Part shown: piece by piece, positions 25,485 through 59,428 of the stretch
Layout of the letters: each line of letters begins with the position of its first letter
How positions within the stretch are numbered: position 1 is the stretch's first letter
Assembly (NCBI GenBank): GCA_025055285.1
Contig: JANWXM010000003.1
Location: 32,714-96,713 of the forward strand
Length of the DNA: 64,000 nt
Reading direction: 5' to 3'
From: Saprospiraceae bacterium
Lineage (GTDB): Bacteria; Bacteroidota; Bacteroidia; Chitinophagales; Saprospiraceae
Made by a program: the position numbers and the translations under genes
Notes under the pieces: model-generated
The model's database searches: none
The model's input: only the letters and a program-made list of their open reading frames with translations
Told to the model about the DNA's origin: nothing

Positions 25485-26903
25485 TTAAAACCACCAGGGA
25501 GAGGCTACAGGCTCTTTCTTAATGAGGAAGGCGCGCTGGCGCAAAAAACGCTTGAGGGCTGCAGGACCCATGCGTGTGCCGCCGAGGCCCGACAGTTTAA
25601 AGGACTGCTTTTCGCCTTCGTGTACGATGGCCGTTAAGGCGCACTCGTTGACGGAGATTGCGCCTGCTTCTAGGCGTTGGCCAATACGCAGTGCAGTAGG
25701 CCAATCTCGCGCAAAGACAGCAGCGCTAAGACCGTAAGTGGTGTCGTTAGCCAAGGCAATTGCCTCTTCTTCTGTGCGGAACGCCATTACAGGAAGAATA
25801 GGCCCGAAAGTTTCCTCGGTCATTATCTTCATGTTGTGATTGACATTAGTCAGTATTGTAGGTCGGCAGTACCATCCGCCACCTAAGTTTTCGCATTGAG
25901 TGCTGCCCGTGAGCAGATGGGCGCCTTTTTGGAAGGCGTCGCGCAGGTGGTCGTTGATGATGTGCACTTGTCGCTCGGAGATGATAGGGCCTATCTGGCC
26001 ATCGTCCGGAGTAGGGTAGGCGAGCCGGACAGCCTCAGCGCGCGCCTTGAGTTTTTCTAGGAATGCCTCCAAGATGGTTTCCTGTACGTAGACGCGCTCA
26101 ATGGAAAGGCACGATTGTCCGCTGTTGACGGTTCCCCCCCAAAGGATAGCGGCTGCAGCATGGTCAAGATCGGCGCCTTCGAACACCAGCGCAGGGTCTT
26201 TGCCGCCCAATTCCAAAAAGCAAGGGATGAAACGCGCCGCACAAGCAGCGTATACCTTTTGGCCTGTGCTTACGCTGCCGGTAAAGCACACTAGGTCTAC
26301 GTTAGTGACAATGTGTGCCCCCGTGGAACCATCGCCCGCTAGGAATGCCAGGACTTCGGCGAGCAAGGGTACGTCGCGCACTGAGGCCATGAGCGGTTCA
26401 ATGAATCGCGGAGTGATTTCGCTAGGCTTCACTACCACGGCGCAGCCTGCCAGCAGCGCCGGCAGCGTGTCTATTAGCCCTAAGAGAAGTGGGAAATTCC
26501 ACGGGCTAATTACGCCTACTACAGGTATGGGCTGAACGTTTTGCCGGATGTGGATGAAGGGAATGGCGCTGACTTTGTCGTGACTTTCTTGGAAGAACGC
26601 CTCTGCCGTCGTACACCAGCGGTCAATGCTTTGCCCTACGAGTTGTGCCTCCAGAATGCTTTCGTGGCGTCGGCCCGTGTCAGCAATTAGCGCCTCGATG
26701 AGTTCGGGCAAGCGGCGCGTGAGCACTTCCTTCCACGCTTGAAGAGTTGCAATGCGCTGGTGCAGCGGCATTTGCGCCCATCGAGGCTGATGTTGTCGTA
26801 GTCGCTCGACCAGCTGCTGAACTTGAGCAGCTTCAGGCAAGTCGAAGAAATAGTCTATCACGCCAGTGCGTGGATTGCGGACAGGGTATTTCTCTTTGTG
26901 CAT
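25485..26903 (-). CDS. NAD(P)-dependent aldehyde dehydrogenase
   Basis: A 472-residue member of the aldehyde dehydrogenase superfamily, which oxidises an aldehyde to the acid in the cytoplasm. Conserved features are the PWNFP motif (VISPWNFPLLL), FTGSVSTGQ for cofactor binding, ELGGKDPALVF carrying the catalytic general base Glu, and NSGQSCLS with the nucleophile Cys265. A later EEIF-type motif reads EETFGPILPVM. It is the last gene of the long minus-strand catabolic operon, three bases after the stop of the exported CpcT/CpeT-like gene. It probably oxidises an aldehyde released by an aldolase/lyase or by the amine oxidase of this island. The substrate cannot be read from the sequence. Confidence 0.9.
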   Translation of the reverse strand: MHKEKYPVRNPRTGVIDYFFDLPEAAQVQQLVERLRQHQPRWAQMPLHQRIATLQAWKEVLTRRLPELIEALIADTGRRHESILEAQLVGQSIDRWCTTAEAFFQESHDKVSAIPFIHIRQNVQPIPVVGVISPWNFPLLLGLIDTLPALLAGCAVVVKPSEITPRFIEPLMASVRDVPLLAEVLAFLAGDGSTGAHIVTNVDLVCFTGSVSTGQKVYAACAARFIPCFLELGGKDPALVFEGADLDHAAAAILWGGTVNSGQSCLSIERVYVQETILEAFLEKLKARAEAVRLAYPTPDDGQIGPIISERQVHIINDHLRDAFQKGAHLLTGSTQCENLGGGWYCRPTILTNVNHNMKIMTEETFGPILPVMAFRTEEEAIALANDTTYGLSAAVFARDWPTALRIGQRLEAGAISVNECALTAIVHEGEKQSFKLSGLGGTRMGPAALKRFLRQRAFLIKKEPVASPWWF

Positions 26904-26906
26904 AAT

Positions 26907-27785
26907 TCACTCGCTGCTGATGAGCGTCCAACCTGAAGCGACCTTTCGAAGATTGATGCCAATACGGCGTGCTGCAGGATCGGCCCACGTGTATGCAATA
27001 GCGCGGCTATTCCAGTGTAGTTGCTCGGGCGGTTCAGCATAGATGGCTAATTTCAGGATAGGTATGCGGCGGCTATGGACCAATTGAGTCAGCTCTACCG
27101 TGTACTCGCCCAAAGTTTCATCGGGAAAGCGCAACTGGACTGCACCTCCTTGGTCGTGGAGGACAAGGCCAGAATAAAAATAGACGCTGTCTTTCCGGAC
27201 GTGCTCCATGGGGTATTGAATCCACCCTCGGAAGAAGCGACATTTGAGCAGGCGGTAAGGCTCCTGGTCAGCGTGTTGAAATAAGCCTTGATCGAGCCAC
27301 AAGAAAGTGTCCCTTTTGAGTACGAAGGAGGAGCGGGTGTTAGGGTCTTGCGCACTGAAGGCATCGTTGGCAAACGTCCATTCCAGGGAGGAGGGCAGCC
27401 CGCGGGGACTCAGACTATCGCCGGGATATAGCGGCTGAAAATCTGTCTGAAGCCGAGCATTAGCACTTTCGCGAAGGTACATGCGATATCGAGCCAGCAA
27501 GCGGCGCCGGTTGCCCTCATAGTGTTCGATGCGCCAGACCCATAGGCCCGCTCCAGTGTCGCGCGCGAATACGCTATGGACGTGTCGATGAGGGTGGGCT
27601 GTGTACACGCGATGACTTTCCGTGTGCGTGTTTTCCATCCAACACTGTTGGAAATTGTTCCACTCGCCGCTGAGGTAATGGGCGAAGCGCTCTGCTGCCG
27701 TCTGGGCCAATGCGCTTGCCGCAGGTGCAAGGCAGCCCACCGCTAATAACGTTTGCTTGACTAAGTTGCGCACCAGCATAGTCAT
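26907..27785 (-). CDS. Exported CpcT/CpeT-like (lipocalin-like) protein
   Basis: A 292-residue protein with a signal peptide (MTMLVRNLVKQTLL..., likely cleaved after ASALAQ). The start at 27785 is preferred because it opens the signal peptide directly after a GAAGAG purine stretch; the longer frame upstream has no such feature. The mature part (AERFAHYLSGEWNNFQQCW, later HPHRHVHSVFARD and LWVWRIEHYEG) resembles the CpcT/CpeT chromophore lyase family, calycin-fold proteins that in cyanobacteria bind and attach bilins. Known members begin with an L..L.G.fsN..Q pattern like this one. A periplasmic ligand-binding or ligand-handling role is inferred. It lies between the SnoaL-like gene and the aldehyde dehydrogenase. 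The family assignment is from the motif pattern and is moderately confident. Confidence 0.6.
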   Translation of the reverse strand: MTMLVRNLVKQTLLAVGCLAPAASALAQTAAERFAHYLSGEWNNFQQCWMENTHTESHRVYTAHPHRHVHSVFARDTGAGLWVWRIEHYEGNRRRLLARYRMYLRESANARLQTDFQPLYPGDSLSPRGLPSSLEWTFANDAFSAQDPNTRSSFVLKRDTFLWLDQGLFQHADQEPYRLLKCRFFRGWIQYPMEHVRKDSVYFYSGLVLHDQGGAVQLRFPDETLGEYTVELTQLVHSRRIPILKLAIYAEPPEQLHWNSRAIAYTWADPAARRIGINLRKVASGWTLISSE

Positions 27786-27864: not shown

Positions 27865-28314
27865 CTACTCTTGTTTCTTGAGCCAGTCACCGATGCCATA
27901 GGGGTCAGGAAGTGCTCCGGAGACGTGTTCGTGTCGAATTCGCCATTGGCCAGTAGTTGCATCGGGTACGAGCACAAATGTGGCGCGGAAGATGTTGTCA
28001 AAACTTTGCTCGAGGACTGTCACGTGCAAGCGAATAATGCCCGCTACCCAGGCCATTGTTTCCGTTTGCTGATGAAACGGACCCTCCAACCACTCAATGC
28101 TTCGCAGGGCGATAGCAGACTGGCAAAAGTCAGCCCACCCTTTCTTAATTTTTTCAAAGCCGATGGTCGTCAGGCGCGGCCCTTCCAGGATGACGTAAGT
28201 TTCCTCCGAAGGAAAATACTTGTCTAAGATACCTGGCAGGTCTTTGTTTACAATGGCCTGATAGTGCTTGGCAACTGTCTCTAGAGCGTTTTGCATAGCC
28301 ATTCTGGAGCACAT
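27865..28314 (-). CDS. SnoaL / NTF2-like protein
   Basis: A 149-residue protein of the NTF2-like (SnoaL) type. The typical helix-rich opening ALETVAKHYQAIVNKDLPGILDKYF is followed by a curved beta sheet ending GQWRIRHEHVSG. NTF2-like proteins form cone-shaped pockets and include isomerases, hydratases and non-catalytic binding proteins. The start at 28314 overlaps the stop of the methyltransferase gene as TAATG, suggesting translational coupling; an ATG 12 bases further in is also possible. There is no signal peptide, so it acts in the cytoplasm. Its role in the catabolic operon is unknown, though hydration, isomerisation or substrate binding are reasonable options. Confidence 0.65.
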   Translation of the reverse strand: MCSRMAMQNALETVAKHYQAIVNKDLPGILDKYFPSEETYVILEGPRLTTIGFEKIKKGWADFCQSAIALRSIEWLEGPFHQQTETMAWVAGIIRLHVTVLEQSFDNIFRATFVLVPDATTGQWRIRHEHVSGALPDPYGIGDWLKKQE

Positions 28315-29537
28315 TAGCGAGGTTTCCACCCTCCAAAGACATTCCAGATAGGCGACCGTCCGTAGTCTTCGCGCGTCTGGACTCCGTTGGAGTTGTCCAG
28401 GTCGTTGACAGCACGTACGCCTACCTGGAGAAAATGCGACCGCGGAATGCCTGCCTCTTCAAGGAGGTCTTCTGGTTGTAGGTCGTGCATATGTCCCCAA
28501 TAAGGCTCGGCGTTGTAGTAGGCATCCCAGTCGCGCATGAACTGTTCGAAGTAGCTCATTTCCGGCGTGTATTGCGGCTGTTCGATATGGAGTGTGAGGC
28601 CACCAGGCGCCAACACTCGGCCGATTTCTCTAAAGATCTTGTGGATGGCCTTCCCACCTGTTTCGTGTAGGAACATTGTGGTTTGTACCCAGTCGAAGTA
28701 GCCATCCGGAAATTCGCTCATGTCTTCGGCGTCCATTTGGACGAAGCGCACGTTCTTGACGCCCAGAGCGATAGTACGGGCTGCGCCATATCGCAGCATA
28801 GGAGCAGCGGCATCTATGGCCCAAACTTCCGCTTCCGGGAAGGCCTCGGCAAGAGGCAAAGTATTGTGCCCTAAGCCACAGCCTACGTCTAAGATGCGTT
28901 TTGGTTTAAAGTCAGGGTAATTTTCGCGCACCCATTTAGCGATAGCCCGCCCGCCGCCGTCAGTGAGGCTGCCCAACATACCACCGCTGGTTACGAACAG
29001 TCCACTGTCGTAATTTGCCGCATTCGATACATCGCCCTCGAAGTACTCGGTGTGGTAGCTGCCAGGCATCAGGTGGTTGTCTACGTGGCGCAAGTAAGCA
29101 GGCACCACAAAACCTGGCTTCAGACGCAGGATAGCTTCGTTTCCTTCGAGGAGTTTTTCGACGCGTTGAGCCAGTTCCTCGGCTTGGCGCAGCACTGCAG
29201 CGCGCCCGTTTTGCTGGCGCATCTCCATCGTGCAACGGCGTAGCGCAGCCCAAAGCTGATAGTAAGGATCGCGGCTAATGGCATCGCGCAGTTCGTGTCG
29301 GCTCTGAAACGAACGGCCATGCTCTGCCTTGAAGGCTGGCTCCACTCGCTGCTCGTAGGCCACCTGTACTCCTGGCGCAATGACCGTAGCCAAGTAGCGG
29401 TTTAGGTTCGCTAAGAAATTGTACCGCGCGCGCTCGTCGTGGGTGAAACGAGGAAATGCCGCATGTTGCTTTAGTTTCGTCCAGACCGGCGGAAGTGAAT
29501 ATCCACTCATTACTTGCTTGTTGTCTCCCATATCCAT
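28314..29537 (-). CDS. SAM-dependent class I methyltransferase
   Basis: A 407-residue protein. The first 190 residues are helical and of unknown family. The rest is a class I methyltransferase with motif I ILDVGCGLGHNTLPLA (about residue 216), the acidic motif II EVWAIDAA, QMDAEDMSEFPDGYFD, and a post-motif LAPGGLTLHIEQP. This is a Methyltransf_11-like arrangement used for small-molecule methylation. The start is preceded by an A/T-only leader (AAAATTTAAAAATAAAA), typical of translation starts in this phylum. A methyltransferase in a degradation operon is unusual; it could activate, protect or detoxify an intermediate, or act as a demethylation partner. The substrate is unknown. Confidence 0.82.
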   Translation of the reverse strand: MDMGDNKQVMSGYSLPPVWTKLKQHAAFPRFTHDERARYNFLANLNRYLATVIAPGVQVAYEQRVEPAFKAEHGRSFQSRHELRDAISRDPYYQLWAALRRCTMEMRQQNGRAAVLRQAEELAQRVEKLLEGNEAILRLKPGFVVPAYLRHVDNHLMPGSYHTEYFEGDVSNAANYDSGLFVTSGGMLGSLTDGGGRAIAKWVRENYPDFKPKRILDVGCGLGHNTLPLAEAFPEAEVWAIDAAAPMLRYGAARTIALGVKNVRFVQMDAEDMSEFPDGYFDWVQTTMFLHETGGKAIHKIFREIGRVLAPGGLTLHIEQPQYTPEMSYFEQFMRDWDAYYNAEPYWGHMHDLQPEDLLEEAGIPRSHFLQVGVRAVNDLDNSNGVQTREDYGRSPIWNVFGGWKPR

Positions 29538-29577: not shown

Positions 29578-30216
29578 TTATTTGGATTTTAAATAAATAA
29601 TAGGTGAGTCATAGGGTGTGAGTCGCTGACCGTCTTTTTCCAACAGTTCCATAACTTCCAATCGGCCGGGGGTGAATTTCTCAATAAGAGTGAAGCGCAT
29701 GCCGTTCCCCCAGTCGTTGGGCGCGTAAATGGTGAAGGTTTCTTTGCCGTCGAAGGTGTATTCAGCGGGTTTGAAGCGTGGGCTGATACGCAGATCGTTG
29801 TAGTCAATGCGTAAATTAGCGTTGTCATTAGTTAGTTGCTCCATGGGCAAGTAATCAGGCAGCTGGTAGGCATACAGGCGCACGGTTCGAGCATCTACTG
29901 CTTCGAAAAAGAAGAGGTGGTGGTTAATTTTGTGGGTGCCATTGGGCATGTCGTAGTAACTTTCTTCAATGAGCCAAAAGCCTGGGCGCTGAGGGGCGTT
30001 TTTGATGCGATGGTCAGCGATTCGGTTGATGTGGCGAGCAAAAGGATGGACTTGCTTTCCCGCAGCGCGCTCTGCCTCCACCTGCTGGCGATTGTCGAAG
30101 TCGCCCGTGATGTATTGTTTAAATAGTTCGATGGCGGCAATGGGTTTTTCCGGAGGATTTGCTCCCTTGCAGGCCCAGAATATCGCCAGCGCAGCGCTCC
30201 AGAATTGTCTTATCAT
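29578..30216 (-). CDS. CpcT/CpeT-like lipoprotein
   Basis: A 212-residue protein with a short lipoprotein signal peptide (MIRQFWSAALAIFWAC, lipobox FWAC), so probably membrane-anchored on the periplasmic side or in the outer membrane. The mature region starts IELFKQYITGDFDNRQQVEAE and contains WLIEESYYDMP and VRLYAYQLP, a pattern like CpcT/CpeT bilin lyases (L..yl.G.f.N..Q ... eqsy ... pyRqr.Y). It is related in design to the exported protein at 26907-27785, which makes two such proteins in one operon. It starts 4 bases after the stop of the small upstream gene. Ligand binding outside the cytoplasm is inferred; lyase activity is not shown. Confidence 0.65.
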   Translation of the reverse strand: MIRQFWSAALAIFWACKGANPPEKPIAAIELFKQYITGDFDNRQQVEAERAAGKQVHPFARHINRIADHRIKNAPQRPGFWLIEESYYDMPNGTHKINHHLFFFEAVDARTVRLYAYQLPDYLPMEQLTNDNANLRIDYNDLRISPRFKPAEYTFDGKETFTIYAPNDWGNGMRFTLIEKFTPGRLEVMELLEKDGQRLTPYDSPIIYLKSK

Positions 30217-30220
30217 TTGT

Positions 30221-30592
30221 CTACATCTCATTGATTTCGTTAGCAATTTGATGCATGGGTTTGTTGTTTTCAGGGAAGGCAACGGCATCGAATTCCTGTT
30301 TGACGATGCGCAGGATGCGCGAGGCATAGCGTGCGTGCCATAGCTGACGTTCTTCTGCTTGTTCATCGGTAGGTACGAATTCCTCAATTTCCGACTGCTT
30401 AAGCACGCCCTTTGCCTCTAGGAGTCGTTCGATGGTGTCTATGCGTTCGCGCAAGACGGCTACTTCGGCAGCTACAGCCATGGCGATATTCATGACTCTT
30501 TCGGTCATGGGATCGTCAAAAAAATAGGGCCGAGCGCCTTTGGCCTTGTCACTAGCCATAACAATATCATTGAGTTTCATAGCGTAAGGCAT
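30221..30592 (-). CDS. Small helical protein of unknown function
   Basis: A 123-residue cytoplasmic protein I do not recognise. It opens with a segment containing ARPYFFDDPMTERVMNIAMAVAAEVAVLRERID, continues with a likely helical IERLLEAKGVL, an acidic linker (EEFVPTDEQAEER) and a basic C-terminal helix. The AVLRERIDTIERLLEAKG stretch could form a short coiled coil. There is no signal peptide or metal-binding motif. The start may instead be the ATG at 30580. Its tight position (4 bases before the CpeT-like gene and 57 after the amidohydrolase) makes it a real operon member. A role as small subunit or assembly factor for a neighbouring enzyme is only a guess. Confidence 0.6.
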   Translation of the reverse strand: MPYAMKLNDIVMASDKAKGARPYFFDDPMTERVMNIAMAVAAEVAVLRERIDTIERLLEAKGVLKQSEIEEFVPTDEQAEERQLWHARYASRILRIVKQEFDAVAFPENNKPMHQIANEINEM

Positions 30593-30649: not shown

Positions 30650-32113
30650 TCAGACACGCCAGAGATACTGGCCGCGCGGTGGGCCTTGGATGACGCCGTT
30701 GTTGTAGATATGCATGCCGCGCAGGAAGGTGTGTTTTACGCGACCCGTGAGCGTCATGCCTTCAAAAGGCGTGTATCCCTGAGCGCTTTCCGACGCTGCA
30801 GCGCGCACCGTGAAGGTCTCGTTTGGGTCGAAAAGCACAATGTCGCCGTCGTAGCCCGGAGCAATATCTCCTTTTCGGCGCAAGCCGAAGCGTTGAGCGG
30901 GATTCCAACACAACAGCTCGGCCATGTGCTGGTAAGTCATACCACGCTTACTACCTTCAGAGAAAAGCCCTGACAACAAGTACTCTGTTCCTCCGAAACC
31001 CGATTTGGCTAAAAAGATGTTGTCTGGGTCGTTTTTGTCTAGCTTGAATTCATGGGAGCAGCAGGCGTGGTCGCTAACTACCCAATCGATTTTTCGCTCC
31101 AGAAGGCATTGCCACAAATACTCGACGTCTTCGCGCGAACGGATAGGCGGGTTTACTTTGGCATAATTTCCTGCAGGCGAGTCGTAGTCGAGCAGCAAGT
31201 GGCCAATAGTTACTTCGCGGCGGAAGTTAATGTGCGGGAACACTTGGGCCATCATGAGAGCAGCGTCAACGGCCTTGCGCGAGCTAAGATGTAACAGGTT
31301 GATATTCAGGCAATCTGTTTCATATGCTAGATAGGAGGCAATAAAGATGGCAAGTCCTTCGGAATGAGGCGGGCGGCTGGCCGAATAGGCGCGCAGGCCC
31401 TTGAGTTTGCCTTCGCGTTCTACAATTTCGGTGTAGGCGCGCATAATTTCCGGCGTCTCACAGTGCAAGCTTAAGCTAATGATGTCGCTTCTATCGGGAA
31501 AGGAGTCCATGGCCTTTCGGATGCCGCGCATAATGAACTCGAAGTGAGCAATGTCGTAGTGTTCGTTTTCAGGTATCATGAGAAATTCGTGTTGGCTGCT
31601 TTTGGAGGCCTTTCCGTGAAGGCCGTATGCGCCATAAAACATGAAGATTTTAAACGAAGTGACACCATAGAACTCGATGAGCATCTCCATTTCATCGATG
31701 TGGTCGTGCTGAATGGGTGCGATGTGGTAGCCGTAATCCACGTAAAAATTTTCGCGCGAGAGATGGAGGACTTCTGGGAAAAAGTCGCGGTATGGGCCGC
31801 CTTTGTTTAGGTAGTAGCGTCCCGTTCGGATGTAGTTGAGGCTACTGGTGACGCCTCCCATGGCGGCGGCGCGGCTTTCGGTGCGTGCGTCTTGGTCGAG
31901 CGGGTTGTAGATGCCGGTGTGCATGTGTGCGTCGGTTAGGCCGGGAAAGGCGAGAAGACCGTTAGCGTCGAAGATTTCGGCATCTGCTGAGCGAGGTAAG
32001 TTAGGGCCTACTTCTATGATTTTGCCTTCAATGATGCGAATGTCTGCCGTCTCTACGGTAGGTGCGTGTGGGCGTACGACGCGGGCATTAGTGATGAGTA
32101 AGTGATTGTCCAT
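30650..32113 (-). CDS. Hydantoinase/dihydroorotase-type amidohydrolase
   Basis: A 487-residue cyclic amidohydrolase of the dihydroorotase/dihydropyrimidinase/allantoinase group, which hydrolyses cyclic amide bonds with a binuclear metal centre. I chose the ATG at 32113 because it begins the typical N-terminal beta sandwich (DNHLLITNARVV). The longer frame adds 85 residues of Cys/Pro-rich antisense-like sequence lying over the CoA-transferase gene. Metal ligands are HxH at His63/His65 (DAHMHTG), the carboxylated Lys155 (TSFKIFMFYG), later histidines in LSLHCE and NLLHLSS, and Asp in VVSDHACC. With hydantoinase A/B in the same operon it suggests that opening a cyclic amide, imide or lactam is central to the pathway. 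The ring actually cleaved is unknown. Confidence 0.88.
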   Translation of the reverse strand: MDNHLLITNARVVRPHAPTVETADIRIIEGKIIEVGPNLPRSADAEIFDANGLLAFPGLTDAHMHTGIYNPLDQDARTESRAAAMGGVTSSLNYIRTGRYYLNKGGPYRDFFPEVLHLSRENFYVDYGYHIAPIQHDHIDEMEMLIEFYGVTSFKIFMFYGAYGLHGKASKSSQHEFLMIPENEHYDIAHFEFIMRGIRKAMDSFPDRSDIISLSLHCETPEIMRAYTEIVEREGKLKGLRAYSASRPPHSEGLAIFIASYLAYETDCLNINLLHLSSRKAVDAALMMAQVFPHINFRREVTIGHLLLDYDSPAGNYAKVNPPIRSREDVEYLWQCLLERKIDWVVSDHACCSHEFKLDKNDPDNIFLAKSGFGGTEYLLSGLFSEGSKRGMTYQHMAELLCWNPAQRFGLRRKGDIAPGYDGDIVLFDPNETFTVRAAASESAQGYTPFEGMTLTGRVKHTFLRGMHIYNNGVIQGPPRGQYLWRV

Positions 32114-50395: not shown

Positions 50396-51297
50396 CGATG
50401 CCCGAAGTGGTTTTAGAAGAACAAGGGTTGCGCGACGGCCTACAGACGGTGCGCACAATTATCCCTACGGAGAAAAAGTTAGAGTGGATAAGACGACTGG
50501 TTAATGCCGGTTTGCGCCGCATCCAGGTGGCGTCATTTGTGCACCCGCGCTTAGTGCCGCAGATGGCGGACGCAGAAGCGCTTTTTGAATGCTTAGACAA
50601 GCAGCCTGGCGTAGTTTATTCTGCCTTAGTGCTCAATCAGAAAGGCGTAGAGCGGGCCATAAACGCGGGAGTACAGCATTTGGCCATTTCCCTATCCGCT
50701 AGCGACACCCACAGCCAACGAAATACGCGCATGACCCTAGAGGAAGCTAAAGCCGACTTTCGCCACAATGTGCGTCTGGCGCGCGCGCAAGGTATACGTG
50801 TGCGAGGAGGCATTCAGTGCGCCTTTGGGTGTCGCTATGAGGGCGCTATCCCTGCCGAACGCGTATGGGATTTGATCAAACATCACCTAGACGCCGGGGC
50901 AGATGAAATTGCTCTGGCTGACTCTACGGGTATGGCTCATCCCGTCCAGGTGCGCCACATCGTCGAGCGCGCCCTCGAACTATGCGGCTCAGTGCCCTTA
51001 GCGCTGCACTTACACAATACGGAAAACAAGGGTTTGGCCAACCTCTTTGCTGCCTACGAGGCAGGAGTACGCCAATTCGATACAGCCTTTGGTGGACTAG
51101 GCGGCTGTCCATTTATTCCAGGTGCAACAGGCAACATCGCAACAGAAGATACCGTGCACTTCTTTCACCAAATGGGCGTGGAAACGGGTATCGATCTCGA
51201 AAAGGTAGCTGCCATAAGTCATGAAGTCGCGTCTTTAACAGACGCAGTGCTTTCTGGTGCCTTGTATAAATTGCCAAGCCGGTTGTCTGTGTCATGA
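50392..51297 (+). CDS. HMG-CoA lyase-like enzyme
   Basis: A 301-residue TIM-barrel lyase of the HMG-CoA lyase/DRE-TIM family, which cleaves 3-hydroxy-3-methylglutaryl-CoA or similar thioesters into acetyl-CoA plus a keto acid. Conserved elements are LEEQGLRDGLQ (residues 8-18), the metal-binding LALHLHNTENKGLANL, and the loop GGLGGCPFIPGATGNIATED carrying the catalytic Cys. It overlaps both neighbours by ATGA junctions, so VOC, lyase and transporter are translationally coupled. In this island it probably cleaves a CoA ester made by the CaiB-type CoA-transferase rather than HMG-CoA from leucine breakdown, because no other leucine genes are present. Confidence 0.9.
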   Translation: MTMPEVVLEEQGLRDGLQTVRTIIPTEKKLEWIRRLVNAGLRRIQVASFVHPRLVPQMADAEALFECLDKQPGVVYSALVLNQKGVERAINAGVQHLAISLSASDTHSQRNTRMTLEEAKADFRHNVRLARAQGIRVRGGIQCAFGCRYEGAIPAERVWDLIKHHLDAGADEIALADSTGMAHPVQVRHIVERALELCGSVPLALHLHNTENKGLANLFAAYEAGVRQFDTAFGGLGGCPFIPGATGNIATEDTVHFFHQMGVETGIDLEKVAAISHEVASLTDAVLSGALYKLPSRLSVS

Positions 51298-52517: not shown

Positions 52518-53918
52518 ATGAACAGACGTGCATTTCTTCGCCAAACATCCATGGCATGCGGCAGTTTGTTGTTAGGCCGCTATGCGTTTGCAGCAGAAGA
52601 GACCACTGATGTACTGGTCATAGGTGCAGGCATTTCGGGCCTTTATACGGCTTACATGCTGCAAGAAAGGGGTATGACGGTGCGCGTGCTAGAGGCATCG
52701 CAACGGATTGGCGGACGCCTGCATACGCTATACGATTTGCCTTGGAAACCCGAGGCAGGTGGTACTGAAATCGGCAATGGCTATCGGCTTTTCTTAGACC
52801 TGGCGGAAAAGACAGGGGTATCTGTCGTAGAACCTCAGGGTGAAGATCCTCGGCGTACGCCTACCCTTTATGTCGTGCGTGGACAGAAAATTTTGGACAA
52901 AGATTGGCCTTCTTCTCCGCATAATCTGCTGGCCGAGAATGAAAAAAGACATGTTCCCGCTGCTTTGGAGTCGGCTTTGCTCACTCCCTTGAATCCGCTT
53001 CAAAAGACGGAAGATTGGTACGACCCTCGCTTTTCCGATTTCGACATCGCTGTGTCAGCGCTGCTGCGTCGTTGCGGCGTTTCAGAGGAGGCCATTCGCC
53101 TCATCGGAGCCAATGCAAACACGAACGACTTAAGTACGACGTCGGCTTTACACTTCTTTCGCTCCCTCACTTTTCGTCAGAAGGGAGGCAGCCGCAAGGT
53201 GTTGCGTGTTCAGGGCGGCAGCCAGCGGTTGCCGGAAGCAGTGGCGGCTCGCCTGCGGAAAGCGGTTGAGCTTGGCAAAAGCGTAGTACGCATCCACGAC
53301 AGAGGACGCCGTGTCAGTGTGCGCTGTGCCGACCGCTCCCAGTATCAGGCCCGTCATGTCGTAGTATCCGTACCCATGTCGGTGCTGGGAGAGATTCACT
53401 TTACCCATGGGTTGCCCTCAGTGTATCAAGATGCTGCGAAGCACTTGCCCTACACGCGCATTACCCAGCTGCACGTGGCTTTTCGACGTCCCTTCTGGGA
53501 GGAAGACGGACTGCCTATCACTATGTGGACGGATGGCCCATTTGGACGCCTTTTCCTCAACCGCGGTCAAGATGGTCAGCAAGGCCTGATTTGTTGGGTG
53601 AATGGCGCTCAAGCCGCTGCTTTAGACCGAAGCACTGACTCGGAAGTCGCCAACGCCTTTCTGCACTACATGAAGACTGTGCGACCAGCCTCTGAGGGTC
53701 AATTGGAGGTGCTTAAGATTCACTCCTGGGGGAAAAACCCCTGGGCTCGCGGCGCCTACTTCCATCTCGCTCCAGGGCAGGCGTACCGTTTTTTCCCAGC
53801 TCTTTGTAACCCTGTAGGACGTATCCATTTCACTGGTGAGCATTTGGGTCTGAAAAACAACGGCGTTGAAGCCGCCTGTGAGAGTGCCGCTGCTGTAGTG
53901 AATCGACTGTCTCGGTAA
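52518..53918 (+). CDS. Tat-exported flavin amine oxidase family protein
   Basis: A 466-residue flavoprotein of the monoamine/polyamine/L-amino-acid oxidase family. The N-terminus MNRRAFLRQTSMACGSLLLG fits a twin-arginine signal (RRAFLR), so the folded FAD enzyme should be exported to the periplasm. The FAD motif DVLVIGAGISGLYTAYMLQERG is followed by EASQRIGGRLHT and, at the C-terminus, GRIHFTGEHLGLKNNGVEAACESA. Such enzymes oxidise C-N or, in some cases, C-C bonds using oxygen or a quinone. The gene is 9 bases after the MFS gene. It is a candidate first oxidative step on the substrate outside the cytoplasm. Confidence 0.9.
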   Translation: MNRRAFLRQTSMACGSLLLGRYAFAAEETTDVLVIGAGISGLYTAYMLQERGMTVRVLEASQRIGGRLHTLYDLPWKPEAGGTEIGNGYRLFLDLAEKTGVSVVEPQGEDPRRTPTLYVVRGQKILDKDWPSSPHNLLAENEKRHVPAALESALLTPLNPLQKTEDWYDPRFSDFDIAVSALLRRCGVSEEAIRLIGANANTNDLSTTSALHFFRSLTFRQKGGSRKVLRVQGGSQRLPEAVAARLRKAVELGKSVVRIHDRGRRVSVRCADRSQYQARHVVVSVPMSVLGEIHFTHGLPSVYQDAAKHLPYTRITQLHVAFRRPFWEEDGLPITMWTDGPFGRLFLNRGQDGQQGLICWVNGAQAAALDRSTDSEVANAFLHYMKTVRPASEGQLEVLKIHSWGKNPWARGAYFHLAPGQAYRFFPALCNPVGRIHFTGEHLGLKNNGVEAACESAAAVVNRLSR

Positions 53919-53991: not shown

Positions 53992-54486
53992 ATGACACTT
54001 CTTTTGCGCGGGCGAGCCCACGTCTATGGTGATAACATTGATACAGATCGCATTATTCCGGGAAAGTATACCAAGACCCTGGATGCTTCAGCCTTAGCGG
54101 CGCACGTGATGGAAGATCTGGATCCAGACTTCCGGGAGCGCCTAAAACCGGGCGACTTTGTTGTAGCGGGCAATAATTTCGGCTGTGGTTCTTCACGGGA
54201 ACAAGCGCCTGTTGCGCTGCAAACGGCCGGCGTCTCGGCCGTTATTGCCCGATACTTTGCCCGTATCTTCTTTCGCAACGCCATCAACATCGGTTTGCCT
54301 GTCTTAGAGATTCCCGATCACGACATTTCCATGGGTGATGAGCTGGAAGTAAACCTAAGCACCGGAAGAGTACACAACTACACTACGGGCCAAACTTACT
54401 GGGCAAAGCCCTTGCCCGACATCATGCTGCGCATCCTGCAGGCTGGTGGGCTGGTCAATTACTTGCGCACACACAAAACCTTCTGA
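53992..54486 (+). CDS. Aconitase-type small subunit (LeuD-like), second copy
   Basis: A 164-residue small subunit of the isopropylmalate/homoaconitate/dimethylmaleate hydratase group with all standard motifs: YGDNIDTDRIIPGKY, AGNNFGCGSSREQAP and FARIFFRNAINIGLPVLE. It is thus the conventional counterpart to the divergent small subunit at 43064-43597. The start follows an A/T-only leader (ATAAAATAAAAATAAAAT), typical of this phylum. Its gene precedes the large-subunit gene by 9 bases, the reverse of the order in the minus arm. Confidence 0.92.
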   Translation: MTLLLRGRAHVYGDNIDTDRIIPGKYTKTLDASALAAHVMEDLDPDFRERLKPGDFVVAGNNFGCGSSREQAPVALQTAGVSAVIARYFARIFFRNAINIGLPVLEIPDHDISMGDELEVNLSTGRVHNYTTGQTYWAKPLPDIMLRILQAGGLVNYLRTHKTF

Positions 54487-54495
54487 AGTTGGGCT

Positions 54496-55761
54496 ATGAG
54501 AGGAATGACTACCGTGGAAAAAATCCTTTTTCAGAAGACAGGGCAGCGCGTGCGCCCTGGCGATATCGTCATTGCACCTGTAGACGGTCTCATGGCTACC
54601 GACACTACAGCGCCAGGAGCCCTGCGCGCGTTCGAAAAGATGGGCGGCCAACGCGTGTGGGCACCAGAAAAGTGTGCCTTCGTAATTGATCATGCCGCTC
54701 CTGCGCCCAACGAACGTATTGCTAATCTGCACCAAATGATGCGCGAGTTCGCTCGTCAGCAAGGCATTCGTCTGTTCGAAATCGGCGAAGGCATCTGTCA
54801 TCAGGTTATTGTAGAGCACGGATACGTGCGACCCGGATACCTCTTCATAGGTGCCGATAGCCATACACCCACCTACGGAGCGCTCAATGCCTTTGCTTGT
54901 GGTGTAGGTTCGACTGATTTGGCTGCCGTATTGCTTACAGGTAAAATTTGGCTCAAGACTCCTGCTACCCTGCGCATCCGTTGTCATGGTCAGCTGCGGG
55001 CGGATGCAAGCCCAAAAGATTTGATTCTCTATTTGACAGGTAAAGTGGGCATCTCTGGAGCTACTTACATGTCAGTGGAATTTGAAGGAGAAGTCTTTGA
55101 GCGCATGTCGTTGGCAGGTCGTATGTGTGTAGCCAACATGACAGCAGAAATGGGAGCCAAGACCGGTTTTGTTCACCCGCGAGGGCTAAAATTGCCATAT
55201 CCCTTCGAACCGGTAGAACCTGACCCTACGGCGGAATATGCGCGCACGATAGATGTGGAAATAGGTGAATTACCTCCTCAGGTAGCAGCACCTGAGTCGC
55301 CCGACAACGTACATCCTATAGACCGCTATGTTGGTACGCCTGTGCACTATGGCTTCATCGGCACCTGTGGAAACGGCCGTCTGGAGGATTTACAGGCTGC
55401 AGCGCGTATCTTGCGCGGCAAACGCCTCCCTGAGGGAGTTCGGTTGGTCATCGCACCAGCTTCGCGCTCGGTCTTACTCGAGGCTATGCTCGATGGCACC
55501 GCCCATACCTTGGTTGCTGCCGGCGCCACCTTGATCACTCCAGGATGCGGCCCCTGCGTAGGCAGCCACGAAGGCGTCCCTGCCGATGGCGAGACGGTCA
55601 TTTCCGCAGCGAATCGCAATTTTCGCGGTCGAATGGGCAATCCGCGCGCCCAGATCTTTTTAGCCTCACCCGCTACCGTAGCCGCATCCGTACTAGCAGG
55701 TTACATTACGCCACCCCCACCCGATGAAGCGCATAACACCGAAGCCATCAGCACTCTTTAA
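54496..55761 (+). CDS. Aconitase-type large subunit (LeuC-like hydratase), second copy
   Basis: A 421-residue Fe-S hydro-lyase large subunit, pairing with the preceding small subunit. Motifs are LFIGADSHTPTYGALNAFACGVGSTDLA, FIGTCGNGRLEDLQ, TPGCGPCVGSHEG and ISAANRNFRGRMGNP, which contain the three expected cluster cysteines. By size it belongs to the archaeal/clostridial-type LeuC branch that includes isopropylmalate, homoaconitate and 2,3-dimethylmaleate hydratases. No leuA or leuB is nearby, so a catabolic hydratase is more likely than leucine synthesis. Confidence 0.92.
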   Translation: MRGMTTVEKILFQKTGQRVRPGDIVIAPVDGLMATDTTAPGALRAFEKMGGQRVWAPEKCAFVIDHAAPAPNERIANLHQMMREFARQQGIRLFEIGEGICHQVIVEHGYVRPGYLFIGADSHTPTYGALNAFACGVGSTDLAAVLLTGKIWLKTPATLRIRCHGQLRADASPKDLILYLTGKVGISGATYMSVEFEGEVFERMSLAGRMCVANMTAEMGAKTGFVHPRGLKLPYPFEPVEPDPTAEYARTIDVEIGELPPQVAAPESPDNVHPIDRYVGTPVHYGFIGTCGNGRLEDLQAAARILRGKRLPEGVRLVIAPASRSVLLEAMLDGTAHTLVAAGATLITPGCGPCVGSHEGVPADGETVISAANRNFRGRMGNPRAQIFLASPATVAASVLAGYITPPPPDEAHNTEAISTL

Positions 55762-55793: not shown

Positions 55794-57053
55794 ATGTTTA
55801 TGAAAAAACCCTTTTACGGCTGGTACTTACTCGCTTCGCTTACCTTGGCTTATACAGTTTCAAATGGACTGGTGCTCAATTCGTTGCCTATTTTTTATCC
55901 GGAACTTGTGCGCGAATTTGGGTGGAATCAAAGTGAAGTGACGCGGCCGGCGCAATTACTCTTTCTCCTGGTAGCAGTGCTTTCGCCCTTTGCCGGCATA
56001 TTGTTGGATCGCTTCAGCACGCGCCACATTTTGCTTACTGGGGCAGGACTAATGACCCTGGGCATTTTTGCCTTTTCGCGCATGAGTACGCTAATGGGCA
56101 TGAGCGCTATCTATCTTCTGTTCTCAGTGAGTTTGGTGCTGTGTGGCATAATTTCGAGCATGTACCTTCTCACGCGTTGGTTTGTGCGGTATCGCGGAAT
56201 TGCAGTGGGCATTTTTTTGTTAGGCTCGAGTTTGGGCGGAGCGATTTTCAATCCTCTGGCTGCCTATTTCATCCAAACCATGGGCTGGCGTTCGGCAGCG
56301 ATGACCTTGGCAGTCCTTGCCGTCGGGTTCCTCGTCTTGCCTCTATTCTTGTTCGTGCGCAACACGCCTCAAGAGATGAATCTTCAACCCGATGGCTTAG
56401 AACCCGCTCTCCTGCCAGCAACAAACGGTTCCACGGCTTCAAATTCTGCAGAACAGCAAGGCCCAACGCTGCAGCAGATCATTCGTACTCCTACGTTTTA
56501 CCTCATCTTGATTGCTACCGCCGCTATGTGGTTTACCATCCTCGGCGTAGTGCAACATCAAGCCCTGTATCTTAAAGATCTAGGCGGAAGCTTGCCTGTA
56601 GGGTCTATCTTAGGGCTTTTCTTTGCCTGTAGTCTCGTAGGTAAAGTTTTCTTTGGTTGGCTTAGCGACCGCTTCGAAAAAAGGTACATCATGCAGCTAG
56701 CTACCCTCAACATGGTTCTTGGCTCCCTTTTGTTGTATCTGTCGCATCGCAATCCTCAGGTGCTTACGTGGGCGTACGCTGTAGTTTTTGGCATCGGCTT
56801 TAGTGGAACCTTTACCATCATTCAAGTGCTTATCGCTGATTTCTATAGCGGGCGCGATTACGGCAAAATTTTAGGGACTTATACCATGATCGACACGCTA
56901 GCTGGCGTGGGCGGCATCAGTTTTCTCGGTTTTGTGCGGTCTTCAAGTGGTTCTTACCAACAAGGTTTTTTAGTCATGCTGATTTTATGCACTTTAGCGG
57001 CGATTTGTATTCCCTTCCTTCGCAAAAGTACACTCGCCGCTAATGAACATTGA
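55794..57053 (+). CDS. MFS transporter (monocarboxylate/OFA-like)
   Basis: A 419-residue inner-membrane transporter with 12 predicted helices. The N-terminus KKPFYGWYLLASLTLAYTVSNG and the sequence FGWNQSEVTRPAQLLFLL resemble the oxalate:formate antiporter/monocarboxylate transporter branch of the MFS; RWFVRYRGIAVGIFLLGSSLGGAIFNPLAAYFI in helices 4-5 is typical. A second conserved signature is FFGWLSDRFEKRY between helices 8 and 9. It overlaps the MarR gene by 11 bases. It is the second MFS carrier of the plus arm and probably takes a carboxylate. Confidence 0.9.
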   Translation: MFMKKPFYGWYLLASLTLAYTVSNGLVLNSLPIFYPELVREFGWNQSEVTRPAQLLFLLVAVLSPFAGILLDRFSTRHILLTGAGLMTLGIFAFSRMSTLMGMSAIYLLFSVSLVLCGIISSMYLLTRWFVRYRGIAVGIFLLGSSLGGAIFNPLAAYFIQTMGWRSAAMTLAVLAVGFLVLPLFLFVRNTPQEMNLQPDGLEPALLPATNGSTASNSAEQQGPTLQQIIRTPTFYLILIATAAMWFTILGVVQHQALYLKDLGGSLPVGSILGLFFACSLVGKVFFGWLSDRFEKRYIMQLATLNMVLGSLLLYLSHRNPQVLTWAYAVVFGIGFSGTFTIIQVLIADFYSGRDYGKILGTYTMIDTLAGVGGISFLGFVRSSSGSYQQGFLVMLILCTLAAICIPFLRKSTLAANEH

Positions 57054-57516
57054 AAAACGCCTCGAAGAGTCGCTTATTCTGCGTCTCATCGCCGTAGGGG
57101 AGGCCCTTAAACGCCGCCGCGACAAAATCTGCCAAGAGTTAGGTATTTCGGCGCAGCAGTGGCTTATCCTCTTGTACTTAGCCAAAGACCCTAACCTGGC
57201 CTTTTTTTCAAAGGAAAAGCACCGAAAACCTATGTTGGCCTCTGAAATAGCGCGCAGCCTCGATGTGTCGCGCCCAAACGTAACTAAGTTGCTCAATGTC
57301 CTTTTAGAAAAAGGTCTAATTCAACAAGTTAAAGATCGAAACGACCATCGCCGAAAGCGCATTGAGTTATCGGAAACAGGGCGTTCTTTGGTAGAGTCGC
57401 TCCAACCTATGCGCCTACAATTGAACGAGCAATTGTTCGAAAACTTCGACCGCCGACAAATGGAAACAGTGCTCCATTTCCTCGATGCTTGCCTGGATCG
57501 CCTGGAAGAATTTTAA
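57043..57516 (+). CDS. MarR-family transcriptional regulator
   Basis: A 157-residue winged-helix regulator. The DNA-binding region includes MLASEIARSLDVSRPNVTKLLNVLLEKGLIQQ (recognition helix SRPNVTKLLNVL) and the wing KDRNDHRRKRIELSETG with the family's D-x-R-D-x-R-like pattern. The N- and C-terminal helices form the dimer interface. MarR proteins in catabolic clusters usually repress and are released by the substrate or a pathway intermediate. The gene overlaps the transporter gene by 11 bases. The palindrome at 45469-45483 is the best candidate binding site in the window. Confidence 0.9.
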   Translation: MNIEKRLEESLILRLIAVGEALKRRRDKICQELGISAQQWLILLYLAKDPNLAFFSKEKHRKPMLASEIARSLDVSRPNVTKLLNVLLEKGLIQQVKDRNDHRRKRIELSETGRSLVESLQPMRLQLNEQLFENFDRRQMETVLHFLDACLDRLEEF

Positions 57517-57530
57517 TTAAATCGTTGAAT

Positions 57531-58406
57531 ATGAAATATGTTTTCTTCCTCTGCGCATTTCTTACTGCTATCCCTGCGTCTCTTGCTCAAGTACTCAAGG
57601 GAAAGGGCGAGCTTTTCTATCTAGGAAAAGAACACCTCTACTACGAAGATGCAGGAAAAGGAGAGCCTATTGTGTTTATTCATGGCTTCACCCTCGATGC
57701 TCGAATGTGGGAACCTCAATGGAAGGTGTTTCGCAAGCGTTATCGCGCTATTCGCTACGATGTGCGCGGTTTTGGGCGTTCCTCTAAAGTTGGCGGCCCT
57801 CACGACCCTGCAGCTGACCTAGCAGCGCTGCTCGACCACTTAAAAATCGAGCGCACGCATTTGGTCGGTTTGTCTATGGGAGCCAACATCGCTCTAAACT
57901 TCGCCGTCCGCTATCCTCAGCGCGTGCTCAAAATAGTAGCAGCCGATCCTAACATAGATGGTTTTAACGACTATACACCAGAGCTTTTCAGTGCCTTTGG
58001 CCAAGTTTTTGGCGCTGTAGCTCAAGGAGGTTGGAATGAAACGGCGCAGAGCCTCTGGCTTCGCATGCCTCTGCTTCGCCTCCAAAATCCCGACGCTGTA
58101 GCGGCGTACCAACGGCTGTTGGAAGAGGTGGTGCGAGCATATGACGGCGCGCAGTTTGTGAATCCGGCCAGTGCTCCTCAGTACGGCCAACCACCTACTT
58201 TGGAGCGTATTAGTGCATTAAACGTACCCACCCTGGTCATTGTAGGCGATAAAGACGAAGAAAGCATACACCGCATCGCCAAACAGATAGCTCAGCGAAT
58301 TCCCGGCGCTCAGCGGCTTATCTTAGCTGAAGCAGGTCATTTGAGTAATTTAGACCAGCCTAAGCGCTTTAATTTGGCCGTCCTACAGTTTCTAAAGAAA
58401 AAATAG
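57531..58406 (+). CDS. Exported alpha/beta hydrolase
   Basis: A 291-residue serine hydrolase of the alpha/beta fold. The ATG at 57531 opens a signal peptide (MKYVFFLCAFLTAIPASLAQ), so it should act in the periplasm. The fold has the oxyanion motif VFIHGFTLDARMW, RAIRYDVRGFGRSSK, the nucleophile elbow HLVGLSMGANIALNFA with Ser, the acid strand TLVIVGDKDEE and the catalytic His in LAEAGHLSNLD. Unlike the homologue at 34775-35593 it keeps the full triad. It lies 14 bases after the MarR gene and 5 before the nitrilase. Ester, lactone or similar hydrolysis of the incoming compound is likely. Confidence 0.9.
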   Translation: MKYVFFLCAFLTAIPASLAQVLKGKGELFYLGKEHLYYEDAGKGEPIVFIHGFTLDARMWEPQWKVFRKRYRAIRYDVRGFGRSSKVGGPHDPAADLAALLDHLKIERTHLVGLSMGANIALNFAVRYPQRVLKIVAADPNIDGFNDYTPELFSAFGQVFGAVAQGGWNETAQSLWLRMPLLRLQNPDAVAAYQRLLEEVVRAYDGAQFVNPASAPQYGQPPTLERISALNVPTLVIVGDKDEESIHRIAKQIAQRIPGAQRLILAEAGHLSNLDQPKRFNLAVLQFLKKK

Positions 58407-58411
58407 CGCCT

Positions 58412-59428
58412 ATGCGCTACAGGGCTTTAGCGCTTCAAACGACGTGTTTTGCTGTCAATCCAGCGCCAACGCCACAGGCGGCTCGCCAACGCATGCACCA
58501 AACTGCTGAGCGCATCGAGCGACAGATCCAAGCCGCTAAGCGTTTCCTGGGGCCAGACGTCCGACTGGTCGCCTTGCCAGAATACTTTCTGACGGGTTTC
58601 CCAATGGGCGAGAGCATTGCCCAGTGGCAAGAAAAAGCTTGCCTTTATCCCGACGACCCGCTGTGGACAACGCTTAGCCAGATAGCTCAACGCCAGGAAG
58701 TCTTTCTAGCAGGAAATGCCTATGAAGTGGATGCGCATTTTCCCGACCTCTACTTTCAGTGTAGTTTCGTCTTTTCACCTGCGGGAAAGCGCATCCTTCA
58801 TTATCGGCGGCTGAATAGCATGTTTGCGCCAACTCCTCATGACGTTTGGGACAGATATCTAGAAATCTATGGTTTAGAAGCAGTCTTTCCAGTAGTAGAT
58901 ACCGAAATTGGCCGGCTAGCATGCATTGCCAGCGAGGAGATTCTCTATCCGGAAATCGCTCGATGCCTCCTGATGCGCGGTGCTGAGGTCTTTCTTCATG
59001 CAACTTCAGAGGTGGGAAGCCCTCAGTTAACGCCTAAGAATGTCGCTAAACTAGCCCGCGCCATTGAAAACATCGCTTATGTAGTTTCTGCCAACTCTGC
59101 AGGCATAGCAGACATCGATATTCCTTTTGCTAGCGCGGATGGCGGCTCAAAAATCATTCACTACGAAGGATATGTACTAGCAGAAGCAGGATATGGCGAG
59201 AGCATGGTAGCAAACGCTACTATAGATATTGCCGCTTTGCGCGCGTATCGAGCGCGGCCAGGGATGAATAATTATATTGCGCGTCAACGCTTCGAACTGT
59301 TTGCTGAAAGCTATGCGAAATACAGCATTTATCCGCCCAATACCTTCCTCAACAAAAAACCCGACCGAGCAGACTTTCTAGAAAACGTCCGTCGAGCAGT
59401 TGATCGCTGGACCTCCTCAGAAACATAA
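58412..59428 (+). CDS. Nitrilase/amidase superfamily protein (CN hydrolase)
   Basis: A 338-residue carbon-nitrogen hydrolase, last gene of the plus arm. The catalytic Glu57 lies in ALPEYFLTGFP and the nucleophile Cys171 in IGRLACIASEEILYPEIAR. The position of the catalytic lysine (usually YRK) is occupied by Arg133 in HYRRLNSMF. Length and the C-terminal NYIARQRFELF segment suggest the aliphatic amidase/nitrilase-like branches. Members hydrolyse nitriles, linear amides or carbamoyl groups. Here it would fit deamidation of an open-chain acid amide produced by the ring-opening hydantoinases. The Lys-to-Arg change leaves its activity uncertain. Confidence 0.85.
   Translation: MRYRALALQTTCFAVNPAPTPQAARQRMHQTAERIERQIQAAKRFLGPDVRLVALPEYFLTGFPMGESIAQWQEKACLYPDDPLWTTLSQIAQRQEVFLAGNAYEVDAHFPDLYFQCSFVFSPAGKRILHYRRLNSMFAPTPHDVWDRYLEIYGLEAVFPVVDTEIGRLACIASEEILYPEIARCLLMRGAEVFLHATSEVGSPQLTPKNVAKLARAIENIAYVVSANSAGIADIDIPFASADGGSKIIHYEGYVLAEAGYGESMVANATIDIAALRAYRARPGMNNYIARQRFELFAESYAKYSIYPPNTFLNKKPDRADFLENVRRAVDRWTSSET

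Follow-up and report, generated by a model that had tools for sequence, protein, structure and literature searches.

In the itaconate and mesaconate routes, a CaiB-type coenzyme A (CoA) transferase acts before citramalyl-CoA lyase, and pyruvate and an acyl-CoA are formed. Cyclic imides are catabolized in Aspergillus by HxnM and HxnN, a ring opener followed by an amidase, as described in the available text of PMC9304392. We compared both systems with a gene cluster at positions 25485-59428 of a 64,000-nucleotide stretch of the Saprospiraceae bacterium assembly GCA_025055285.1 (contig JANWXM010000003.1; assembly size 3.6 Mb); the whole stretch is called the window. The cluster consists of 32 genes in two divergent operons, 20 on the minus strand (25485-45438) and 12 on the plus strand (45550-59428). 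It resembles the HxnM/HxnN system in its ring opener and amidase, but adds two aconitase-type hydratases, a CoA-transferase, two lyases and TonB-type uptake. With the itaconate and mesaconate routes it shares the transferase-then-lyase logic, whereas its lyase is of the HMG-CoA-lyase type (HMGL). Our tentative reading, which falls somewhat short of being probable, is that the cluster is a catabolic system for a nitrogen-containing ring compound in Bacteroidota and Kapaibacteria and that its likeliest substrates would be linear tetrapyrroles (phycobilins and other bilins). A logic leading from an imide to a maleate-type acid is, taken by itself, rather probable.

The ring openers were compared in whole genomes for 29 of the 53 loci of Bacteroidota or Kapaibacteria that contain the signature (marker) protein of the cluster, one locus being used per genome. 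The metal-dependent hydrolase encoded in the window was found in 13 of the 29 genomes (E<=1e-60) and a hydrolase of the PuuE type in 15 (E<=1e-40). In no genome did the two types occur together (0/29) and only one (G492) had neither; the naive chance of finding no overlap is 2e-7 if kinship among the genomes is ignored. According to record titles, the metal type is distributed over 5 Saprospiraceae, 3 Chitinophagales, 3 Cytophagales and 2 Kapaibacteria, and the PuuE type over 4 Saprospiraceae, 1 Chitinophagales, 3 Cytophagales and 7 Flavobacteria, with Arcicella, Sediminibacterium and Bernardetiaceae placed in the families to which we take them to belong. As both types occur inside Saprospiraceae, Chitinophagales and Cytophagales, the exchange of ring openers was not one event. 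The metal hydrolase gene directly follows the CaiB gene in G493, G497, G498, G500, G501, G507 and G517, as it does in the window, and an amidase-PuuE-PuuE set follows CaiB in G502, G503, G504, G506, G508, G509, G510 and G511; in G494, G518 and G519 the metal hydrolase is sited elsewhere. Maribacter vaceletii (L118-L120), which is devoid of the metal hydrolase, has an HMGL-LeuC2-LeuD2-CMD-CaiB operon in which CaiB is followed by a DUF4440 protein, an isochorismatase-family amidase and two PuuE-type proteins of the polysaccharide deacetylase family. In the stretches examined around the loci, all 5 genomes with a CN hydrolase have the metal-type opener and all 10 with an isochorismatase-type amidase have the PuuE type; 14 of the 29 showed neither of the two amidases. 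Since two unrelated hydrolases replace each other at the same position, ring opening is very likely a required step of the pathway, and because both are cyclic-amide hydrolases and no genome uses the two together, a nitrogen-containing ring is strongly implied. An earlier note on this DNA had proposed the complete breakdown of such a compound after its passage through the outer membrane; the ring is thus upheld, while completeness and import by the TonB receptor go further than our data.

The two head-to-head operons described in that note were recovered by the open reading frame (ORF) listing and by Pfam/NCBIfam scans of the window proteins, as were all families it had named, i.e. the TonB receptor, two MFS carriers, HyuA/B, the amidohydrolase, the CN hydrolase, two LeuC/LeuD pairs, the HpcH and HMGL lyases, CaiB, several oxidoreductases, the aldehyde dehydrogenase and the MarR regulator. 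Absent from its list were the methyltransferase, the SnoaL-like protein, the small protein at 30221-30592 and two alpha/beta hydrolases. Some ORF starts look too early; we would place those of the amidohydrolase and LeuC1 at about 32113 and 44891, and those of the genes at 26907 and 49118 at about 27785 and 49280. The features are as follows.

25485..26903, minus strand: aldehyde dehydrogenase (Pfam PF00171)
26907..27785, minus: exported protein, remote CpeT/CpcT relative (by profile comparison with CpeT-type proteins; no Pfam match)
27865..28329, minus: SnoaL-like small protein (PF13474)
28314..29537, minus: class I methyltransferase (PF13649); weak PDB match to phosphoethanolamine methyltransferases in the methyltransferase domain only
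29578..30387, start uncertain, minus: putative lipoprotein, possible CpeT relative (CpeT match below cut-off)
30221..30592, minus: small protein without Pfam match, often adjoining the methyltransferase in homologous loci
30650..32113, minus: metal-dependent cyclic amidohydrolase of the hydantoinase/allantoinase type, proposed ring opener (PF01979)
32163..33284, minus: class III CoA-transferase, CaiB type (PF02515); NCBIfam matches to formyl-CoA, succinate-glutarate and mesaconate CoA-transferases, all below cut-off
33299..34759, minus: flavin oxidoreductase, fumarate/urocanate-reductase-like (PF00890; PDB 1qo8, 6t85)
34775..35617, minus: alpha/beta hydrolase (PF00561)
35651..36652, minus: medium-chain reductase, ADH_N_2 (PF16884)
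36633..38327, minus: HyuB, lactamase/hydantoinase subunit (PF02538)
38369..38950, minus: VOC-fold putative lipoprotein (PF00903)
38961..41042, minus: HyuA, lactamase/hydantoinase subunit (PF01968/PF05378)
41058..41897, minus: short-chain dehydrogenase, SDR (PF13561)
41919..42242, minus: HapK/RedY-like protein (PF11639; PDB 2jdj)
42296..43063, minus: HpcH/HpaI-type aldolase (PF03328)
43064..43597, minus: LeuD1, small subunit of a divergent hydratase (PF00694)
43617..44891, minus: LeuC1, large subunit, Fe-S type (PF00330)
44932..45438, minus: DUF3598-like beta barrel, the marker protein (PF12204)
45439..45549, no strand: divergent intergenic region separating the two operons
45550..48294, plus strand: TonB-dependent outer-membrane receptor (PF00593, PF07715, PF13715)
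48340..49272, plus: DUF1838 protein, probably exported (PF08894, 1.2e-72)
49280..50395, plus: VOC-fold protein, probably exported (PF00903)
50392..51297, plus: HMGL, carbon-carbon lyase of the HMG-CoA-lyase type (PF00682)
51294..52508, plus: MFS transporter 1 (PF07690; nearest to aromatic-acid symporters, below cut-off)
52518..53918, plus: flavin adenine dinucleotide (FAD) amine-oxidase-like protein, probably exported (PF01593)
53992..54486, plus: LeuD2, small subunit of the second hydratase (TIGR02087)
54496..55761, plus: LeuC2, large subunit, Fe-S type (PF00330)
55794..57053, plus: MFS transporter 2 (NCBIfam L-lactate and oxalate/formate types, below cut-off)
57043..57516, plus: MarR-type regulator (HpaR-like, below cut-off)
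57489..58406, plus: alpha/beta hydrolase, probably exported (PF00561/PF12697)
58412..59428, plus: CN hydrolase (amidase), proposed half-amidase (PF00795); nearest to formamidase and N-carbamoylputrescine amidase, below cut-off, with PDB matches to nitrilases/amidases

The cluster is real and conserved, and it can be recognized in dozens of related genomes. Co-occurrence of the genes elsewhere, which the earlier note had named as a check, was borne out by synteny with a congener, by 80 marker loci and by the comparison of 29 genomes. The congener G018 possesses 32 of the 32 genes in identical order, with 69-92% identity over the longest aligned piece. Among 100 relatives, DUF1838 was found in six genomes and LeuC2 (E<=1e-100) in the same six; the metal hydrolase was found in three, all of them among these six, and HyuA was matched in 11, the five matches with at least 59% identity again belonging to the six. 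G002 and G035 have the plus operon of the window and the beginning of its minus operon, and a second G002 contig holds most of the remaining minus operon. A smaller cluster in G035 through gene loss was considered and rejected, as part of its stretch is masked. Two genomes of the same family (G055 and G060) contain rearranged versions of the cluster. To call the cluster an island, as the earlier note did, is reasonable but unproven; the flanking aminopeptidase is located on another contig in the three congeners that carry the cluster, G002, G018 and G035.

For the marker scan, an alignment of the DUF3598-like protein (168 amino acids) was run against genome contigs, and the best 80 of 222 relatives were retained. 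By record title, 53 of these 80 loci (L032-L084, a few genomes having two) belong to Bacteroidota or Kapaibacteria. Neighbors were counted by tblastn (>60 bits) within 10 kb on each side of the marker, or less at contig ends, a threshold that admits paralogues and permits cross-matches between LeuC1 and LeuC2. In this way LeuC1 was found near the marker in 48 of the 53 loci, LeuD1 in 46, HpcH in 41, HapK and SDR in 40 each, HyuA in 37 and HyuB in 23. Fewer of the genes accompany the marker at the remaining 27 loci, most of which come from Nonomuraea or other Actinobacteria; the aldehyde dehydrogenase was found at 21, the CN hydrolase at 18 and the metal hydrolase at 5. In many Actinobacteria, aldehyde dehydrogenase homologues adjoin the DUF3598-like gene and the CN hydrolase. 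The most compact locus, from Kapaibacteria, comprises HMGL, FAD oxidoreductase, MFS, CN hydrolase, methyltransferase, small protein, SnoaL, CaiB, LeuCD2, CpeT-like protein, marker, LeuCD1, HpcH, HapK, SDR, HyuA, HyuB and aldehyde dehydrogenase, together with two unmatched ORFs. In the 29 genomes, HyuA was present in the stretches examined of 28, and homologues of HMGL, LeuD2 or CaiB were found beside LeuC2 in 26. The count of LeuC2 in 29 of 29 genomes has to be tempered, as the matches in G514, G515 and G516 (57-58%) have no HMGL, LeuD2 or CaiB neighbor in their stretch. The marker itself is rare: in 395 Bacteroidia genomes it was found only once, in the genome to which the window belongs.

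Partial or loosely related sets were seen in other contexts. On the Novosphingobium resinovorum plasmid pSA1 (L025, 8445-31892), which was typed as conjugative, two methyltransferases, a small protein of the 30221 type, an FAD oxidase, DUF3598, DUF1838 and LeuC/LeuD are encoded. A Nonomuraea plasmid has the trio of aldehyde dehydrogenase, marker and CN hydrolase, and two other plasmids have little else. Judging from the translations, the partial set of Nonomuraea (L098, L109 and further loci) stands amid several ABC-transporter-like genes with binding proteins of the nitrate/thiamine-precursor type. At L074, L077 and L082 (Bernardetiaceae and a Cytophagales metagenome-assembled genome, MAG), a second copy of the marker, separate from LeuCD1, adjoins the methyltransferase gene and the small gene that accompanies it. 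By annotation, the DUF1838 neighborhoods of Streptomyces SGAir0924 and Novosphingobium P6W contain none of the cluster's other genes. For the DUF1838 protein of the window, modeled with a predicted local distance difference test (pLDDT) of 91, a fold search of the PDB gave no convincing match.

The metal hydrolase (30650-32113) scored 232 bits against the NCBIfam model for allantoinase AllB (cut-off 358) and 179 against that for hydantoinase (cut-off 393). Its motifs HxH, SFK, LHCET, HLSS and SDHA, which we take to be the ligands of a binuclear metal center with a carboxylated lysine, are kept in 5 of 5 aligned sequences. For the PuuE pair of Maribacter at L118, scores of 117.7 and 99.2 were obtained with the NCBIfam PuuE model (cut-off 424.6), and a PuuE-type protein of Maribacter matches PuuE (3cl6) and 3qbu in the PDB. 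According to the available text of PMC9304392, the 3qbu structure is linked to imidases and an HxnM deletion mutant accumulates a cyclic imide, a phenotype through which the PuuE family is tied to the opening of cyclic imides; the PuuE-type proteins of Flavobacteria fall within the wider family connected to HxnM by that description. HyuA and HyuB are nearest to the alpha and beta subunits of caprolactamase (CapAB) but reach 543 and 209 bits where 1000 is required of each, so that they are non-members by this NCBIfam test; HyuB also matches N-methylhydantoinase in the PDB. Allantoinase, hydantoinase, ergothioneine hydantoin hydrolase and caprolactamase were tried as single-step identities and rejected, as no NCBIfam equivalog cut-off was passed.

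Both hydratases belong to the aconitase family, which includes homoaconitase, isopropylmalate isomerase and DmdAB, and by their motifs they are distinct from each other. LeuD2 and LeuC2 exceed the cut-offs of TIGR02087 (206 versus 109) and TIGR02086 (497 versus 410), and among the NCBIfam models no equivalog of a named enzyme was passed by LeuCD2. The closest solved relatives of LeuD2 are the small subunits of isopropylmalate/citramalate isomerase and homoaconitase. Its GSSRE motif and a positively charged KYTKT loop are present in 9 of 9 sequences; the corresponding loop reads YLRT in the solved homoaconitase and YLVY in the isomerase. This region of the small subunit sets the substrate preference in the family, as stated in the accessible part of PMC7308503. 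In LeuD1 (43064-43597), GSSRE is replaced by GGGKSIE in 42 of 42 sequences, and the cluster cysteines of LeuC1 are kept in 47 of 47. We know of no characterized member of the aconitase family with GGGKSIE, and the LeuD1 subfamily may possibly represent a new activity of this family.

Of the two lyases, HMGL (50392-51297) scores 306 with NF004283 (cut-off 246) and keeps GLGGCPF and LHLH[ND]TE in 9 of 9 sequences each, and HpcH scores 160 with TIGR02311 (cut-off 369) and keeps GPRDLA in 42 of 42, these residues being presumably catalytic. The pyruvate dehydrogenase AceE (TIGR00759, 1231 versus a cut-off of 860) is encoded inside the cluster region of Maribacter vaceletii, and AceE matches were found in the stretches examined of 9 of the 29 genomes, Maribacter vaceletii included (seven Flavobacteria and two Saprospiraceae). 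Pyruvate as a main product is consistent with AceE in or beside the cluster and with the conserved motifs of HpcH and HMGL. The Maribacter AceE is of the homodimeric type (L119, 715-3411) and, by our own reading, has an E2-like neighbor.

On chemical grounds, a cyclic imide that is opened and deamidated to a maleate-type diacid would be a natural substrate for the aconitase family, and the triacid from hematinic acid is a methyl-homoaconitate, which would be a good match for a hydratase whose loop is positively charged. We therefore outline a scheme in which every reaction, their order and the substrate are predicted from gene content, conservation, mutually exclusive ring openers and intact motifs. 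The TonB receptor and the exported beta-barrel, VOC and FAD proteins would serve in uptake and pre-processing of the substrate, and oxidation of a bilin would give two kinds of maleimide, an alkyl/vinyl one and hematinic acid, which bears a propionate arm. HyuAB may open a lactam with ATP, and the cyclic imide would be opened by the metal hydrolase at 30650-32113 or, in other lineages, by the PuuE-type hydrolase. The resulting half-amide would then be hydrolyzed by the CN hydrolase, or elsewhere by the isochorismatase-type amidase. In one branch, the maleate-type acid may be hydrated by LeuCD2, activated with CoA by CaiB and cleaved by HMGL; in the other, LeuCD1 and SDR would act before aldol cleavage by HpcH, and the aldehyde dehydrogenase would follow. 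Both branches would yield pyruvate, plus acyl pieces.

The substrate was approached through protein folds and the origin of the genomes. The marker protein was modeled with a pLDDT of 95, and Foldseek matched it best to BFA1 and the DUF3598 protein 2o62 (E ~1e-6), with weaker matches to nitrobindins and the S-type bilin lyase CpeS. CpeT-family proteins, relatives of the CpeT/CpcT phycobilin lyases, are present in homologous clusters, where 6 of 8 exported candidates belong to this family (E 7.6e-16 to 1.4e-32). The copies in the window are, in contrast, remote or below cut-off. The 26907 protein has no Pfam match at E<=0.01 but, by profile comparison, shares a C-terminal part with the CpeT-type proteins of homologous clusters (probability 99.7, E 5.8e-27), and the 29578 protein gave a CpeT E of 0.048 (14 versus 21 bits) and a 29-column match to the CpeT set (probability 21, E 0.001). 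Some carriers are MAGs which, judging from their name code, come from the macroalgal survey described in the available text of PMC10233909. Of 14 such MAGs with the marker, 8 bear the letter R, 3 the letter H and 3 are from sediment, none being from Ulva, Saccharina or seawater; R and H both denote red algae, the letters being assigned inconsistently in the accessible portion of that source. All 11 alga-derived marker MAGs are thus from red algae, which contributed 1,148 of the 1,801 algal genomes and 74 of the 125 'Saprospiraceae unc' MAGs (PMC10233909, same portion); naive p values for the enrichment are 0.007 (11/11) and 0.025 (7 Saprospiraceae alone).

Several points weigh against bilins. 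The barrel of the marker is generic, with matches also to luciferases, lipocalins and designed proteins and modest TM-scores. CpeT is found in 49 of the 395 Bacteroidia genomes and the marker in the window's own alone, so that the CpeT link is weak; CpeT as strong proof of bilins was rejected on this control, and the CpeT-like protein, one of the search seeds proposed in the earlier note, is a weak marker. Few genomes underlie the red-alga test, and these are related and de-replicated; the three further marker MAGs of the survey come from sediment. By record title, sheep duodenum is the source of one carrier, and the Actinobacteria and Alphaproteobacteria that have partial sets show no tie to phototrophs. 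Neither a heme oxygenase nor a bilin reductase was noticed among the annotated genes, in which no search was aimed at either. The methyltransferase and its small partner have no role in the proposed scheme, and no ring enzyme reaches any NCBIfam equivalog cut-off. Finally, both ring openers find their best family matches among allantoinases, and the enzyme nearest to the isochorismatase-type amidase is N-carbamoylsarcosine amidohydrolase, so that a hydantoin-like ureide fits these steps equally well. Linear tetrapyrroles are our best guess for the substrate, one backed at the level of folds and ecology and clearly more apt to fail than to hold. Still more doubtful is the wider proposal of a first gene system for bacterial mineralization of linear tetrapyrroles, comprising bilin uptake, oxidation to a vinyl/alkyl maleimide and hematinic acid, two unrelated imidases, two dedicated aconitase-family enzymes (one of them acting on hematinate as methyl-homoaconitate) and cleavage to pyruvate and acyl units.

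In hydantoin or ureide catabolism, the opener would make an N-carbamoyl compound, whose carbamoyl group would be split off by the CN hydrolase or the isochorismatase-type enzyme, much as hydantoin or creatinine is degraded; LeuCD, CaiB and the lyases would treat the carbon skeleton. The homology of HyuB to N-methylhydantoinase agrees with such a route, which would yield an amino compound, and an aminotransferase-like gene is, by our own reading, present at the edge of the Maribacter stretch. However, no aminotransferase was found among the 32 genes of the cluster, the ring openers score far under their equivalog cut-offs, and two aconitase-type hydratases together with a CoA-transferase and lyases better suit a freed unsaturated diacid. 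We regard this explanation as unlikely, although it is the best placed of the alternatives to bilins. A little less likely again are chlorophyll catabolites, or free maleimides and hematinic acid in general, taken up as mono- or dipyrroles. The ring chemistry would be the same, soil-type Actinobacteria carry part of the gene set, and the available text of PMC7318184 reports hematinic acid and chlorophyll-derived dipyrroles from leaves and cites the occurrence of maleimides and hematinic acid in senescent leaves and in lake sediments. Chlorophyll is, however, a pigment of all algae, yet 0 of the 11 alga-derived marker MAGs are from green or brown ones, and maleimides went undetected in the study's own leaves, as far as the accessible part of PMC7318184 reports.

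Degradation of another nitrogen heterocycle (pyridine, indole or alkaloid type) via an imide would follow the logic of nicotinate breakdown in Aspergillus, in which an imide-opening hydrolase precedes an amidase (PMC9304392, available text). No molybdenum hydroxylase or ring-hydroxylating oxygenase was found among the 32 genes of the cluster, and this origin of the imide appears improbable. A biosynthetic or modifying cluster, suggested by the methyltransferase, SnoaL-like and HapK/RedY-like proteins, kinds that are also present in natural-product clusters, is very improbable, since no assembly-line or scaffold-building enzyme is found among the 32 genes and the TonB receptor, hydrolases, hydratases, lyases and Maribacter pyruvate dehydrogenase point to breakdown.

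Elsewhere in the window, three very large adjacent genes on the minus strand (9881-22192) resemble those for anti-phage defense proteins, encoding a DruE-like helicase (1736 amino acids), a DpdE/DrmD-like helicase (957 amino acids) and a DrmMI/type IIG-like methyltransferase (1407 amino acids); by these resemblances they are probably a defense system of mixed affinity. No tRNA gene was found within the 64-kb window.

The earlier note had not recognized the combination of genes from any described pathway, and none with this gene set was encountered among the papers listed by full-text searches of open PMC literature, judged by title and start of the abstract. In the same way, no bacterial pathway for the catabolism of bilins or tetrapyrroles was found among the papers so listed, subscription papers and bioRxiv lying outside the scope of these searches. 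The cluster apparently represents a widespread, undescribed pathway. Chlorophyll alone is made and degraded at a scale of 10^12 kg yearly, as given in the available text of PMC7318184. If bilins are indeed the substrates, the cluster would provide marker genes by which this step in the recycling of carbon and nitrogen could be followed. With another nitrogen-ring substrate, it would still be a clean case of replacement between unrelated enzymes and would include a branch of the aconitase family with an invariant, altered active-site motif. Two named and sequenced strains that carry the cluster, Maribacter vaceletii DSM 25230 and Maribacter algarum RZ26, make the proposal testable.

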